DNA of 64,000 bases. It comes from Ferrovibrio sp. GTDB lineage: Bacteria; Pseudomonadota; Alphaproteobacteria; Ferrovibrionales; Ferrovibrionaceae. Made by a program: the position numbers and the translations under genes. The notes beneath the pieces were generated by a model. It did not search any database. It saw only the letters and a list, made by a program, of their open reading frames with translations, and was not told where the DNA came from. Shown here piece by piece: positions 1 through 6,677 of the stretch; positions within the stretch are counted from its first letter, which is position 1, and the number at the start of each line of letters is the position of its first letter. The DNA lies in assembly GCF_017994015.1 (NCBI RefSeq), contig NZ_JAGOLP010000002.1, forward strand, positions 62,001 through 126,000. The letters are read 5' to 3'.

Positions 1-917
1 AGATCGGCGCCGCGCAGCATGGCGGCACGCAGGTCGGAAGCGGATAGATCAAGCCCGATCAGCGAGCGGCCGCCGAGATCAAGCCGGGTGCCGCCGCTGC
101 CATTGGTGTTGATCCACAGGCTGTGTTCATCAATCAGCGGGACCAGCCAGTCGGGCAGGTCGGCGCTGTTGCGGCGGCGGATCGCGCCGCTGAGATCGGC
201 ACCGGCAAAATCGGCGCGCGCCAGATCAACATTGCGCAGATTGGCGCCGGTCAGGTCGGCGCCAACAAATTTGGCACCGTTGATCTGGGCGCCGATCAGT
301 GTGACTTCACGCAGCCGGGCGCCGGAAAAATCCGCCCCGGTCAGGTCAGCGCCGGCCAGGTTGACGGCAAACATGTTGGCGCGGGCAAAATTCGCCCCCT
401 TGGCGGAAGACAGCTTCAATGTCGAATTGCTCAGATCGGCGCCGGAGAAATCGGCACGGTCGATCGAGACATTCGACAGGTTGGTGGCGCGCTCTTCCTT
501 TTCCTCGCGGCCGTTCGTCCATTTCACCACCTGGCCGGGGCGCAGATCGGCATCGCGTAGCACGGCATCATTCAGCTTGGCATGGGCCAGATTGGCGCCG
601 CGCAGATCGGCACGCATGAAACTGGCGCCGCACAGGTCGGCATTGGAAAAATCCACGCCAAACAGGTCGGCGGCATCACAGCGTGCGCCACGCAGCATGG
701 CATCGGTGATGGTGCAGCCGGTCAGCACCGCGCCGCGCAGATCCAGATTCAGCCCGCCCAGGCCGGAAATATCCAGCGTGCGCATGATCAGGCGCTGGCC
801 ATTGGGCAGGTTGGAGGTGAAGCGGGCATGCAAAGCCGCCGCCTTGAGAAACACGCGCAAATTCGGATTCAGGCTTTGCGGCGCTGCTTCGCCCAAGGAT
901 TCCTGCCCGATGGCCAT
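1..917 (-). CDS. Pentapeptide-repeat protein (3' end outside window)
   Basis: The minus strand reads without a stop from an ATG at 917 to the window edge. After about 60 non-repetitive residues come runs of A(D/N)LXX pentapeptides such as ADLCG, ADLRG, ANLAH, ADFSG and ADLTG, the signature of a right-handed quadrilateral beta helix. The middle (about residues 120-140, around RPGQVVKWTNG) interrupts the repeats. No signal peptide or catalytic domain is visible, so a cytoplasmic structural or protein-binding role is the most that can be said. The C-terminus is missing. The regular GGCGCCGATCTG-like codons make every other frame look like a long low-complexity ORF, which explains the open frames on the plus strand here. 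The start is uncertain: no strong ribosome site precedes 917 and the frame stays open some way upstream. Confidence 0.85.
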   Translation of the reverse strand, partial: MAIGQESLGEAAPQSLNPNLRVFLKAAALHARFTSNLPNGQRLIMRTLDISGLGGLNLDLRGAVLTGCTITDAMLRGARCDAADLFGVDFSNADLCGASFMRADLRGANLAHAKLNDAVLRDADLRPGQVVKWTNGREEKEERATNLSNVSIDRADFSGADLSNSTLKLSSAKGANFARANMFAVNLAGADLTGADFSGARLREVTLIGAQINGAKFVGADLTGANLRNVDLARADFAGADLSGAIRRRNSADLPDWLVPLIDEHSLWINTNGSGGTRLDLGGRSLIGLDLSASDLRAAMLRGAD

Positions 918-1052: not shown

Positions 1053-2558
1053 TTATTTACTGGCGGCGGCGGGATTTGTCGGGATTTGTAGCAATTGGTC
1101 AGAATGCGCCAGCGGCAGGCGTAATTCGACGCGCGTCCCGGCACCCGCCTCACTAAACAACTTGAAATTGCCGCCCTGGGCTTCGATCAGGCGCCGCGCC
1201 GCATAGAGCCCAAAGCCGGTGCCCTTGGCGATGCCGGCATTGCTGGCCCGGAAAAACCGGCTGCCGATCTGCGCCAGTTCGGCCGGCGGGATGCCGATGC
1301 CCTGATCCGCGATGCAGAGCAAAGCCATATCCGCCTCGCGGTCCAGGCGCAGCAGCACCACACCATCCGGGGCGGAATATTTCAGCGCATTGTCGATCAG
1401 GTTGGCACAGATCGCGCCAAGCCATTCGGCATCGCCCAATGCTGCGATGGGCTGGGCTGCGATAGGCCGGGCTGCGATAGGCTGGGCTGCTGCATCCGGC
1501 AGTTCAAAACGCAGCCTGGCCGCTTCGCCCGCCGGCAATTCGGCTTGCAGACCTTGCAACAGCGGCAGCAGCAGAACCGGCTCGCGGCGACCGGCTTTCA
1601 GCCCGGCCTCAAGCTGTTCGGTGGCCAGGAAGGTTTCCAAAAGCCGGCGCAACCGGCGGCCGGCAGCGCGGATCGCCGCCAGCCGCTGGGCGATGGCCAG
1701 AGGCGCGCCGGGCAGCAGGGTTTCCAGCATCTCGGCGGCGCGGTCGATCACCGCCACCGGGGTGCGGAAATCATGCCCCACCATATCGATGAACAGGCGC
1801 TGGTCGCGCCGCATGGCGCTTTCCTGGTCCAGCGCCGTGCTGAGCTGTTCCTGCAATCGGCGGCGCGCTTCCACTTCCTCTGCCAGGGCGCGGTTGCGCT
1901 CGGTCAGTTCGGCCAGCAGGCGGCTGCCGACCAGCGCCACCAGGGCGATGAAATGCAGCCCGACATAAAGAATGGTGCCGAGAAACCACATGATCTGCGC
2001 CGCATCCTCGGCCAGATAATAATCCCGTGGCGGCGCCAGCCCGGCCTCTGCCGCGCGCAGCAGCGACGACAAACCATGCGCCAGGTTGAGCCCGACCAGA
2101 AACCAGCGCAGCAGCGGCGGCGCGCCCTTGGCGCCGATCATGTTCAGCCCGGTGGCAGTGGCCAGCACACCAACGATGAAGGAAAATGCCATGATGCGCA
2201 GCGACACGTCATCCGGTGCCAGCAGCAGCATGGCCGGCCAGATCGCGGCGGTGAACAGCACCATCAGCCAGGCCAGCCAGCGCTGGGGCGGGCGGCCGGT
2301 GAATTGCGCCAAGCCCACCATTACCACGGCATAGCCGACCATGATCAGCAGATTGGCGCAGCTGATCACCAGCACAGGCGGCAGGAAGGCGCGCATCGGA
2401 TGCAGCGTGGTACCCAACGCCGCCGCCACCGAGCCCAGCATGATGTTGCGGATGCCGGGCAGGGCGCGTAGCCCGCGATGCAGCGCCACCCAACCGGCTG
2501 CCTGGATGCCAAGCTGGATCAGCAGCAGGAAATTCAGCGTCAGCAGGTCCACTTTCAT
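1053..2558 (-). CDS. Membrane sensor histidine kinase, complete (third of three tandem paralogs)
   Basis: A 501-residue sensor kinase. Residues 1-215 are a multi-helix membrane sensor of about seven segments with no known ligand domain. A short coiled linker (about 215-250) follows, then the HisKA domain with H-box MVGHDFRTPVAVI (His262), and a full HATPase domain: N-box NLIDNALKYS, G1 DQGIGIP, F-box FFRA, G2 GTGFGLY. It should autophosphorylate, but no response regulator gene lies nearby. Its ATG overlaps the stop of the upstream kinase (ATGA, 2555-2558), so translation is coupled. It is the only one of the three kinases with all catalytic motifs. The membrane part is alignable with the other two (a GSRL-type end of the last helix followed by a coiled linker), which indicates tandem duplication. 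Confidence 0.9.
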   Translation of the reverse strand: MKVDLLTLNFLLLIQLGIQAAGWVALHRGLRALPGIRNIMLGSVAAALGTTLHPMRAFLPPVLVISCANLLIMVGYAVVMVGLAQFTGRPPQRWLAWLMVLFTAAIWPAMLLLAPDDVSLRIMAFSFIVGVLATATGLNMIGAKGAPPLLRWFLVGLNLAHGLSSLLRAAEAGLAPPRDYYLAEDAAQIMWFLGTILYVGLHFIALVALVGSRLLAELTERNRALAEEVEARRRLQEQLSTALDQESAMRRDQRLFIDMVGHDFRTPVAVIDRAAEMLETLLPGAPLAIAQRLAAIRAAGRRLRRLLETFLATEQLEAGLKAGRREPVLLLPLLQGLQAELPAGEAARLRFELPDAAAQPIAARPIAAQPIAALGDAEWLGAICANLIDNALKYSAPDGVVLLRLDREADMALLCIADQGIGIPPAELAQIGSRFFRASNAGIAKGTGFGLYAARRLIEAQGGNFKLFSEAGAGTRVELRLPLAHSDQLLQIPTNPAAASK

Positions 2559-3979
2559 GGCGCCACCATGCCGACCGCCTCGGCCAGCGGCAGCCGCAGC
2601 AAGGCCAGCCGCCCCGGCAGCGCGCCGAGCAGCAGAGCACCGCCCTGCGCCTCCAGCAAGCGCCGCGCCGTGGCACGCCCCAGCGTATCATCATCCGCCG
2701 CCACCGTCTGGCGCCAGGCACTGCCCAGCAGGGTCAGTTCGGCACGGCCCGGCCGCGGCTCCAGCCGCAGCACGATACCGGCCGCATCCGTTCCAGCCGC
2801 CTCAGCCCCCGACACCTCAGCCCCTGGTGCCGGCAGCGCGGCATCCAGCAAACAGGCCAGGGCGATGCGCAGCAGATCAGGATCGCCACGCACCAGGCAG
2901 GCCGGCGCCAATTGCAGATCCACCCGGGCGCGCTGGCAGGGATCGAGCCGGTTATGCAGATCCTGCAACAAAGCCACCAGGTCCACCACCTCGCGCCGTG
3001 CATCGCCCAGGCCACTTTGCAGCCGTTCCTGCGCCAGGAAGGCATCAATCATCAGGCGCAGCCGCTGGCCTTCGCTGCGCAGGTCGGCCACTTCCCGCAA
3101 CGCTGCCTGATAGGGCGCAGCCTTCCTGCCTTCCAGGCTGATCGCCACCATCTCGGCGGCGCGGTCGATAATCGCCAGCGGGGTGCGGAATTCATGCCCC
3201 ACCATGTCAAGGAAATGGCGCTGTTCGCGCCGCGCCGCACTTTCCTCGGCCAAGGCCGCCGCCAGTTCGGCCTGCAGCTTTTGGCGCTGATCGGCCTCAC
3301 GCAGCAGCATCTCATTCTGCTGCACCTGTGCATAGGCCAGCCGGCTGCCCAGCAGGGCTATGATGCCGATAAAGAAGAAGGCGGCATAAAGGATGAATTC
3401 CAGATAGAAGATATTGCTGGCCGAGGCCGGCAACACGCCCCGGCCGGTCAGCACATGCTGCGCGCCATCCAGCAGGCGCAAGGCGGCGACGGCGGCATGG
3501 ATCAGGTTCAGCGCCGTCACCAGGCCCCGGATCACCTGCGGCACCTGCCGCGCCGCCCAGGCTTCGCGGGCGCAGAGCAGGGCATAACCCAGGCCCGGCA
3601 CCGCGCCCAGCAAGGCGATCCAGCCGGGATGGCCCGGCACCAGCAGCACATAGGCCGGCCACATCACCAGGTTGACGCCATACAGCACAAGCCCGGCGCG
3701 CAGCGGCAAAGGCCGTTCCACCATCTGCGCCAGCGCCAGCAGGGTCAGCAGCAGGCCGCCAACGCTGAAGTAATTCGCCACCACCTCGCTGATCCAGGGA
3801 TTGACCTGGCCGCGCTGCGACACCAGCAGCAAACCGGGCACAAACATCAACGCGGCAATACAGGCGGTGCGCACCCCGGCGGTGTGTGGCTGGCTGCGCC
3901 AGATCAGCAGCCAGCCGATGCCCTGCAACAGCAGCACTGTGGCCAGCACCACGGCTAGGGTGCGCTGATCAAGAAACAC
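2555..3979 (-). CDS. Sensor kinase paralog with phospho-His but degenerate ATP-binding domain
   Basis: A 474-residue paralog of its two neighbours with the same multi-helix N-terminus (residues 1-215) and an intact H-box MVGHEFRTPLAII (His262). The catalytic domain has lost its nucleotide motifs. Where the downstream paralog has NLIDNALK, this protein reads CLLDAALP, losing both Asn and the Lys. The G1 DxGxG is absent (LLGSAWRQ in its place) and the G2 glycine box is reduced to TLGRATARRL. The frame is otherwise clean. The GTG start at 3979 is chosen because an AAGGAGG lies 6 nt upstream and the start VFLDQRTL aligns with the paralog start LLDIRTL; a longer frame reaches 4075 but would lie inside the upstream kinase. 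It overlaps the upstream kinase by 11 nt and the downstream kinase by 4 nt. Probably it receives phosphate in trans rather than being a decayed gene (inference). Confidence 0.85.
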   Translation of the reverse strand: MFLDQRTLAVVLATVLLLQGIGWLLIWRSQPHTAGVRTACIAALMFVPGLLLVSQRGQVNPWISEVVANYFSVGGLLLTLLALAQMVERPLPLRAGLVLYGVNLVMWPAYVLLVPGHPGWIALLGAVPGLGYALLCAREAWAARQVPQVIRGLVTALNLIHAAVAALRLLDGAQHVLTGRGVLPASASNIFYLEFILYAAFFFIGIIALLGSRLAYAQVQQNEMLLREADQRQKLQAELAAALAEESAARREQRHFLDMVGHEFRTPLAIIDRAAEMVAISLEGRKAAPYQAALREVADLRSEGQRLRLMIDAFLAQERLQSGLGDARREVVDLVALLQDLHNRLDPCQRARVDLQLAPACLVRGDPDLLRIALACLLDAALPAPGAEVSGAEAAGTDAAGIVLRLEPRPGRAELTLLGSAWRQTVAADDDTLGRATARRLLEAQGGALLLGALPGRLALLRLPLAEAVGMVAP

Positions 3980-5450
3980 CCGGCGCCTCCTTAACCAGCG
4001 CCTCGCCCAGCGGCAGCAGCACCTTGAAACTGCTGCCCCGGCCGGGCTGGCTATCCACCGTGAAACGCCCGCCATGAAACTGGATCAGTCGTCCGGCACT
4101 GAACAGACCCAGGCCGGTGCCCGGCACGGCGGCGGTATTGCCGGCGCGGAAAAAGCGCTGCCCGATGGCGCCCAGATCACGTTCCGGAATGCCGATGCCG
4201 CGATCCGTCACCGTCACCACCGCCTCATCACCCACCCGCGCCAGCGTCACCTGCACCGGCGCTTCAGGGGCGGAATATTTCAGCGCATTATCCAGCAGAT
4301 TGCCAAACACCACTGCCAGCATCGCGGCATCGCCACGCGCCATCACCGGGGCATCCGGGGCAGTGAATTGCAGCCGCCATTCGGCACCCGGCCGCGCCCC
4401 GGGCCGCGCCTGCTCCTGCAACAATTCAGCCAGCAGCGCCTTCAGGTCCACCGGTTCCTGCCGCATCTCGGCCATGCCGCCCTGGATGCGGCGATCCAGC
4501 AGAAACGTGTCGATCAGCAGCCGCAGCCGGCTTGCCGCGCCGCCAATCGCATCCAGCCTGGGCGCAGCGCTGTCACACAAGGGCGGCGGCAACCCGCGCA
4601 GCCGCTCGACGCGCTGGCCGATGGACCGCAGCGGCACGTCAAAATCAGCCGAAATCCGATTGATAAAAAGCTGCTGTTCCTGCCGCATGGCGGCTTCCTG
4701 ATCCAGCGCCGTGCGGAGCTGCATTTGCAGCAGCCGCTGGGTGCCGATCACTTCGCCCAGGGCGGCATTCTGGCGTTCCACATCGCGCATCAGCCGGGCG
4801 CCGAGCAACACCGCAAAGCAGACCGTGAAAGCCACCACCGAGACAATATTCTCCAATGCCCAGATTGTGTTGAGCAAGTTGCGGCTGAAATAGGCATCGC
4901 CGGCCGGAATATACAGGCCGGAAATGCCGCGCAACACCACCGCCGCCATATGCAGCGCCACTACAATGGCAAAGGTCCAGCGTTGCAGGCGCGGCAGGGT
5001 ATCGGCGCGCAGCAGCAGCCACAGCATGACGATGAACTGCACCATCACGATCACGGCATAAACAGTGACACGCAAGCCGATATTCTGCGGCACCAGCAGC
5101 AGCGCCAGCGGCCAGAACACCGTCGCCAGGATGATTGTGGCATAAATCAGCAGCCGCACCCGCCGCCGGGTCCAATCCAGCAGATCGGCGATGGAGAGCG
5201 CCATCAGGCCCTGGCCGACAATGACGATGACATTGGCCAGCACCACCGAAAGCCAATCGTCGATCAGGCCGCGCAGCGACAGCAGCAGCAGGCCAAGGCC
5301 AACCAGCAAGCAGCCAAAGGCCCAATACGGCACGCCGGGCAGCCGCGTGCCGGGAATGAACGACTGCCCGCGCCACACGATCAGCAAAGCCACGCCCAGC
5401 GCCAGGGTGAGCGCGAAGGTGACAATCAGCAGGGTGCGGATATCGAGCAA
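3969..5450 (-). CDS. Sensor kinase paralog with intact ATPase domain but no phospho-His
   Basis: A 493-residue paralog, first of the three in transcription order. Multi-helix membrane sensor in residues 1-220. The H-box position reads [15 protein letters not shown]: Ala268 replaces the phospho-accepting His and the RTP after it is DVP. The ATPase domain is fully intact: N-box [11 protein letters not shown]1 DRGIGIP, F-box FFRA, G2 GTGLGLF. The TTG start at 5450 is chosen because GGAG lies 6 nt upstream and LLDIRTL matches the paralog start; the open frame continues to 5735 but would overlap the enoyl-CoA hydratase gene extensively. The protein cannot autophosphorylate on the usual His but could phosphorylate a partner, and the next gene encodes exactly the opposite defect. 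This is comparable in logic to the split CheA3/CheA4 pair of Rhodobacter sphaeroides (known precedent). Confidence 0.85.
3986..3992 (-). promoter_or_regulatory. Strong Shine-Dalgarno fixing the GTG start of the middle kinase
   Basis: AAGGAGG on the minus strand, 6 nt before the GTG at 3979. It sits inside the last codons of the upstream kinase gene and decides between the 474-residue product and a longer out-of-context frame. Confidence 0.8.
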
Positions 5451-5478: not shown

Positions 5479-6297
5479 CTATAAAGGCACGGTCTTGGCG
5501 AAATCCGGTGGCCGTTTCTCACGATGCGAGGCCACACCTTCGCGCAGGTCAGGCCCGTTGAAGCCCAGCATCTCCAGCGCCAGCGAGGCATCGAAGGTCG
5601 GCCCGGCCTGGCGCAGCCAGTTATTGAGTGCGTATTTGCTCCAGCGGATCGCGGTGGGCGAACCGGCAGCCAGACGTTGCGCCACTTCCAATGCCTTGGG
5701 GAACAAATCCGCCTCGTCAACACAGAGCGAGACAAGGCCGATCCGCTCGGCTTCCTCGCCGCTCACCGGCTCGCACAGCAGCAGATGATATTTCGCCTTC
5801 GCCATACCGCAGAGCAACGGCCAGATAATGGCGGCATGGTCGCCGGCCGCCACGCCAAGCCGGGTATGGCCATCGATAATGCGGGCGGTCTTGGCGGCGA
5901 TGGAGATATCCGCCAGCAGACCGGCCACCAGGCCGGCGCCCACTGCCGGACCATGCATGGCGGACACAATCGGCTTTGAGCAGTTGATCACGTTGTAGAC
6001 CAGGTCGCGGGCTTCCTTCCACACCCGGGTCAGGGCATTGAAATCACCCGCCATACTTTCCACCAGCGAAAAATCGCCGCCGGCCGAAAAGCCCTTGCCC
6101 TCGCCGCGCAGGATCACCGCCGCCACATCCGGATCGGCATCGATATCGCGCCACACTTCGGCCAGTTCACGATGCATGACATGGTCGGTGGTGGGCAGCC
6201 GGCCTTCCTTGCCGGCCATCACCACTTCCAGCACACGCTCGGCCGGGCGATTGAAGCGCAGGCTGCTATAGCTGGCGTAACGATCTGGCTGTTGCAT
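5479..6297 (-). CDS. Enoyl-CoA hydratase/isomerase family protein
   Basis: A 272-residue crotonase-fold protein. The oxyanion-hole segments are visible as [14 protein letters not shown] (about residues 67-80) and [13 protein letters not shown] (about 113-126). The C-terminus [15 protein letters not shown] is typical of the family. It would act on an acyl-CoA thioester in the cytoplasm; substrate unknown. Where many hydratases have a catalytic Glu after the second segment, this reads [11 protein letters not shown], so true hydratase chemistry is not assured. It starts 11 nt after the AhpD-like gene and is followed 28 nt later by the kinase trio, so all five genes may be one transcript. Confidence 0.88.
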
Positions 6298-6308: not shown

Positions 6309-6677
6309 TCAGCCGGCGGCCTTGGTGGCCTGATGCGCGCGGCCCTGGCCCACCGCATCCATCACCCGGGCGGAATAGACCAAAGCCGAGCCGGCATTGA
6401 CCGAAATCGCCACGCCCAGCGCCTCGGCGATTTCGGCATCCGTTGCGCCGGCCTTGAGCGCCGCTGCGCTATGCACCGCAATGCAGCCATCGCAGCGCGT
6501 GGTGACCGCCACGGCCAGCGCAATCAATTCGCGCACCTTATCGCCGAGCGGGCCGACCTGCTTGCCGGCACCGCTCAGCGCCCGGTAGCCGGCGATCATG
6601 TCGGGGTTGAGCTGGGTCAGATTGCCGACCGCCTGGGCCAGTTCCTTCCGGTAGACATTCCAATCTTCCATGCTCAT
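6309..6677 (-). CDS. Carboxymuconolactone decarboxylase/AhpD-like protein
   Basis: A 122-residue all-helical CMD-fold protein. The motif [11 protein letters not shown] supplies the CxxC plus His used by AhpD-type disulfide reductases and alkylhydroperoxidases. Length and the C-terminal [14 protein letters not shown] helix fit the family. Probable role is peroxide or disulfide handling; the alternative is a lactone decarboxylase. It is the first gene of the leftward group that includes the enoyl-CoA hydratase and the three kinases, and it diverges from the UPF0114 gene over a 135-bp gap that must hold both promoters. Confidence 0.87.

Follow-up and report, generated by a model that had tools for sequence, protein, structure and literature searches.

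A probable split transmembrane histidine kinase encoded by overlapping paralogous genes with reciprocal motif losses in Ferrovibrio

Gene organisation of the locus

The DNA analysed here, referred to below as the window, is a stretch of 64,000 nt from the 4.27 Mb draft genome of Ferrovibrio sp. GCF_017994015.1 (contig NZ_JAGOLP010000002.1, positions 62,001-126,000; G000:C100:62001-126000 in our genome set). It includes three genes for paralogous membrane sensor kinases, named K3, K2 and K1. Each of these proteins starts with membrane helices that span approximately 235 residues (seven helices in the predicted structures of K2 and K3), continues with the DHp region and ends with the ATPase region. 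The features of the locus, in window positions and all on the minus strand, are the following:

6309..6677, minus strand: AhpD-like gene, an upstream neighbour kept in the four clusters described below
5479..6297, minus strand: enoyl-CoA hydratase family gene, an upstream neighbour also kept in the four clusters
3969..5450, minus strand: K3, seven-helix membrane sensor kinase paralogue, with a TTG start at 5450
4647..4649, minus strand: codon for Ala268, at the phospho-His position of K3 according to the alignment (residues numbered from the TTG at 5450)
4005..4334, minus strand: intact HATPase_c domain of K3, residues 373-482 (Pfam, 88.2 bits, E 6.1e-25)
3986..3992, minus strand: Shine-Dalgarno sequence AAGGAGG for K2, within the 3' end of K3
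3969..3979, minus strand: overlap of K3 and K2, 11 nt
2555..3979, minus strand: K2, seven-helix membrane sensor kinase paralogue, with a GTG start
3179..3199, minus strand: intact H-box GHEFRTP of K2, with His262, Glu263 and Thr266
2555..2992, minus strand: degenerate ATPase domain of K2, in which the lid is also lost; its structure model has low-confidence stretches
1053..2558, minus strand: K1, complete paralogous kinase (HisKA and HATPase_c), with an ATG start
1..917, minus strand: beginning of the gene for a pentapeptide-repeat protein, between K1 and the response regulator; the gene runs past the window

An earlier note on this DNA had described clean reading frames, an overlap of 11 nt between K3 and K2, and a Shine-Dalgarno sequence within K3; all of these are correct, as are the coordinates of the genes, and K2 and K1 overlap by a further 4 nt in this genome (G000). 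The Shine-Dalgarno sequence is real but varies among relatives: it is AAGGAGA in the nearest one (G004) and AGGAG in G003, and no such sequence can be recognised in G007. The ATG of the pentapeptide-repeat gene at position 917 was placed by alignment with its orthologues, and the complete gene corresponds to L051:9680-10990. Just beyond the window, one gene past K1, lies the gene of an OmpR-type response regulator (L051:8810-9619); directly 3' of it and on the same strand is a gene for a protein with a T5orf172 domain (L051:8012-8782; 22.2 bits with a cut-off of 20). A separate peculiarity of K1 is an Ala/Pro/Ile repeat, ARPIAAQPIAA, located just before the N box (window 1430-1500), which is five residues longer than in G004.

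Reciprocal motif losses in K3 and K2

Every kinase motif is present in K1. The H-box region of K3 reads ISADFDVP versus GHDFRTP in K1, so that the Arg and Thr of this box are lost together with the phospho-His; its N, G1 (DRGIGIP), F (RFFRAGN) and G2 (GTGLGLF) boxes are intact. In K2 the opposite is seen: the GHEFRTP motif is kept, a deletion has removed G1, and the N box and G2 have become ACLLDAALPAP and DDDTLGR, respectively. Both descriptions had been advanced in the earlier note, and the alignment and the Pfam assignments bear them out: K1 matches HisKA and HATPase_c, K2 matches HisKA and no HATPase family, and K3 matches HATPase_c and not HisKA. A HisKA/DHp region with phospho-His is thus found in K1 and K2 and is absent from K3; an HATPase_c domain with the N, G1, F and G2 boxes is found in K1 and K3 and is absent from K2. 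The pair of features that characterises HisKA kinases is present in K2 and K3 only jointly, and all three proteins belong to the family by descent.

K2 and K3 have the composition expected of a split kinase, a HisKA protein devoid of HATPase next to a partner that has the HATPase and no phospho-His, and for split kinases that are bifunctional an HE/DxxN/T motif on the acceptor has been used as criterion (PMC3591291). This motif, which is linked to phosphatase activity, is present as HEFRT in the four K2 proteins found. CheA domains (Hpt P1 and CheW-like P5) were not detected in these kinases, and the only Pfam families above the cut-off were HisKA or HATPase_c. Searches with Foldseek using the models of K2 and K3 retrieved ordinary histidine kinase cores, which adds little beyond confirming the fold; among NCBIfam families the best likeness is to PhoR.

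The rarity of this composition was evident when the domain matches of complete genomes were paired by position. G000 has 57 HisKA and 64 HATPase_c matches; an HATPase_c match lies downstream of 56 of the 57, K2 being the sole exception, and K3 is among only eight HATPase_c matches that lack a HisKA. Likewise, K2 is the only HisKA match without a downstream HATPase_c in G003 (55 HisKA matches) and in G007 (41), although in both genomes the DHp regions of K3 still give weak HisKA matches under the curated cut-off. Over the three genomes, which are related and do not represent three independent events, 3 of 153 HisKA matches are in this situation; all three are K2 proteins, and the gene of each one overlaps a K3 gene. 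A chance pairing of K2 and K3 was rejected on the basis of this count. In a database survey, 3.66% of HisKA proteins were without an ATPase domain (PMC3591291).

Conservation of the cluster

Orthologues were compared in a sample of ten genomes of the genus, four of which (G000, G004, G003 and G007) carry the K3-K2 cluster; the comparisons that follow refer to these four clusters from a single genus. G004 is a contig of Alphaproteobacteria bacterium UBA7691, whose K3 is 95% identical, and is the nearest named record; the contig search gave, beyond this locus, one irrelevant kinase. The order of the genes is AhpD-like, enoyl-CoA hydratase, K3, K2, K1, pentapeptide-repeat protein (69-98% identical, present in the four clusters) and OmpR-type response regulator. 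The K3 and K2 genes overlap in every cluster, by 11 nt in G000, G004 and G003, and by 4 nt in G007.

The earlier note had proposed that reciprocal conservation of the two defects in orthologues would support co-evolution, and this is what was observed, in favour of its core idea of complementary subunits with trans-phosphorylation: the reciprocal defects are present in the four clusters, and neither an orthologue retaining all motifs nor a frameshift was found in any of them. The phospho-His of K3 is replaced by Ala in G000 and G004 and by Arg in G007; G003 has three tandem K3 genes with open frames (L041:9534-13872), in which the residue is Gln, Gln and Asn, followed by a single K2 and K1. 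The ATPase domain is intact in all these K3 proteins, including its N, G1, F and G2 boxes. Each K2 keeps the His of HEFRTP and has lost the N, G1 and G2 boxes. Three clusters contain a complete K1; the fourth, G007, has none and keeps K3, K2, the pentapeptide-repeat gene (approx. 310 nt from K2) and the regulator. Therefore, K1 is not an essential part of the system, and the suggestion of the earlier note that K1 tunes the pair is weakened. An assembly error and pseudogenes were also considered and rejected, given that the pattern is present in four genomes, one of them with 5 contigs and 99% completeness.

A phylogenetic tree placed K1, K2, K3 and a complete single homologue, here called S, each in one clade with 98-100% support. 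This also holds for the membrane region alone, so that convergence through shared losses was rejected as the origin of the K2 and K3 clades. From this topology, each loss would most simply be one old event, kept while the residue that replaces the His of K3 changed. S is present in seven genomes, including G003 and G007, directly followed by a regulator gene whose product is 41-51% identical to the cluster regulator. This pair looks like the ancestral arrangement, from which the cluster would have arisen by duplication. One genome of the genus, G008 (97% complete), has neither the cluster nor S.

In 385 genomes of the class searched with a profile of the membrane region, the only other genus with close full-length kinases was that of L056-L058, whose kinases are all complete; weaker matches of this profile were in proteins with GGDEF domains or unrelated kinase modules. 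In another alphaproteobacterial genus the membrane module is fused to GGDEF in tandems of three to four genes (L059, L060, L061, L078-L080), and in these tandems at least one copy is seemingly without the GGDEF part.

Selective constraint on K2 and K3

Estimates of dN/dS between G000 and G004 are not higher than 0.28 in every domain of K1, K2 and K3; therefore, these genes are not decaying. The constraint is distributed differently in the two proteins. For K2, identities of G000 with G003 and G007 are 79 and 54% in the DHp region and 48 and 29% in the ATPase region, whereas for K3 they are 73 and 58% in the ATPase domain and 64 and 46% in the DHp region. The patterns of K2 and K3 are opposite (interaction z of 3.9-5.2); for K3 taken alone, the excess of conservation of the ATPase domain over the DHp region is significant in just one of four comparisons.

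In known histidine kinases, the residues that follow the phospho-His contact the response regulator. At this place K1, K2 and S have IDRAAEM or a sequence close to it, and each K3 is altered. Given that the residues expected to contact the regulator are kept in K2 and altered in K3, the regulator seems to interact with K2 and not with K3.

A model for the K2-K3 pair and its alternatives

The sequences show the reciprocal losses and their conservation, the reversed constraint, overlapping genes and a regulator linked to them; from these we infer a physical pairing of K2 and K3, with trans-phosphorylation, phosphotransfer and phosphatase activity. K2 and K3 would thus probably form a single split transmembrane kinase as its two obligate halves, with K3 acting as the kinase of K2, and K2 acting on the OmpR-type regulator. 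According to this model, both proteins would retain their own seven-helix sensor and the DHp helical hairpin, and would assemble with each other, the simplest form being a heterodimer joined by the DHp helices. With ATP bound to its ATPase domain, K3 would phosphorylate His262 of K2 in trans; phosphorylated K2 would hand the phosphate to the regulator, which it could also dephosphorylate by means of its HExxT motif. The overlap of the two genes would hold both subunits in step through their translation. Where it is present, K1 is a sister kinase with all motifs and the same residues towards the regulator, and would probably act as an extra input to that regulator. The most telling cluster is that of G007: upstream of its regulator, no phospho-His is encoded except that of K2, and no ATPase domain except that of K3; in this species, cross-talk from the unlinked S kinase may occur.

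The chief doubt concerns geometry. Obligate heterodimerisation of K2 and K3, proposed in the earlier note, is plausible and requires a trans, not a cis, arrangement. A point against a split kinase is that the family resembles PhoR, and E. coli PhoR has been reported to autophosphorylate in cis (PMC5956149); if the geometry were strictly cis, the ATPase domain of K3 could not reach the His of K2 in a heterodimer. The handedness of the DHp loop decides between cis and trans (PMC5956149). The DHp loop of K2 is 2-4 residues longer than that of K1 and most K3 proteins, and this could alter the outcome.

Other explanations of the same genes differ mainly in the role given to K1. It could be the working kinase, with K2 as a regulator-binding pseudokinase that acts mainly as phosphatase, and K3 as a regulatory pseudokinase that forms heterodimers and so modulates K1 or K2, much as in RetS/GacS or DivL/CckA. 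K1 might indeed be the real kinase in the three clusters where it is complete; K2 keeps the HExxT motif that is associated with phosphatase activity (PMC3591291), and modulation by a pseudokinase in a heterodimer has been documented for GacS/RetS (PMC12189002) and proposed for ChrS/HrrS (PMC9491836). Nevertheless, G007 has K3, K2 and the regulator without K1, and a mere modulator need not have the ATPase domain as its most conserved domain, which makes this explanation unlikely. Somewhat less probable still is that K3 phosphorylates K1, either in addition to K2 or in its place, with the three kinases combining into various dimers whose several acceptors share one regulator. Such a mixture would fit with the descent of all these kinases from one duplicated kinase and with the moderate likeness of the DHp regions of K3 and K1 (43% identity in G000 versus 31% for K3 and K2); however, it offers no reason why every cluster should keep a K2 without ATPase domain, and G007 has maintained K3 in the absence of K1. 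Tandem paralogues with lost motifs also bring to mind copies that degenerate after duplication, but this is hardly credible for genes with open frames in four species and purifying selection in every domain, and whose losses are monophyletic and were kept through divergence down to approx. 40% identity. The split kinase formed by K2 and K3 is the explanation that we favour.

Comparison with known systems

In EnvZ and NtrB, a mutant subunit without the His and another with a dead ATPase restore phosphorylation when they are combined in a mixed dimer. In Mycobacterium tuberculosis, Rv0600c and Rv0601c are adjacent kinases, one bearing the ATPase and the other the His, that act with one response regulator, TcrA; here one kinase is divided into shorter proteins. 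Compared with this description, K2 and K3 are two (or, in the species with three K3 genes, four) full-length paralogues, each with a sensor. Intermolecular complementation of CheA mutants has been cited as well (PMC5956149). Complementation in EnvZ, NtrB and CheA was obtained with laboratory mutants, whereas in K2 and K3 the defects are fixed, conserved and carried by separate genes.

The earlier note compared the pair with CheA3 and CheA4 of Rhodobacter sphaeroides, where CheA3 is the phospho-acceptor and phosphatase, CheA4 is the ATPase kinase, and neither autophosphorylates alone (PMC3591291, PMC6829392). The comparison is apt regarding function, since acceptor/phosphatase and ATPase roles are divided between two proteins in both cases; the two systems are not homologous. 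CheA3 and CheA4 are soluble members of the CheA family, from which whole domains were removed and whose receptors are separate proteins. In contrast, K2 and K3 are both membrane sensors of the HisKA type that maintain the full layout and in which the losses occurred by substitution and erosion. RetS/GacS and DivL/CckA are also sensor kinases with hetero-interactions in which one protein lacks a catalytic function; unlike K2 and K3, at least one partner is a complete kinase and the loss is not reciprocal. In the open literature we found no case of two full-length transmembrane paralogues whose reciprocal losses are fixed in distinct genes and shared by several species, and none of one acceptor that has as many as three ATPase partners; an earlier description of either is possible.

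Implications for sensor kinases

Histidine kinases are normally regarded as homodimers that bear both halves of the reaction. The splitting of acceptor and ATPase is already known from CheA3/CheA4, and pseudokinases and kinase heterodimers from ChrS/HrrS and RetS/GacS. If the model is correct, this conserved natural pair of full-length membrane sensors, each lacking one half, would by its very design be a receptor with two inputs, and it would allow signalling by heterodimers and the choice between cis and trans phosphorylation to be tested without engineered mutants. According to theory, switch-like and bistable behaviour is possible with bifunctional kinases that are split (PMC3591291). More tentatively, and with the balance slightly against it, these proteins might represent a lineage of obligately heteromeric kinases that acts as a hub, where signals converge from one to three sensor-ATPase K3 proteins on one acceptor/phosphatase, K2; in that case, the species with three K3 genes (G003) would show a single acceptor collecting several signals.
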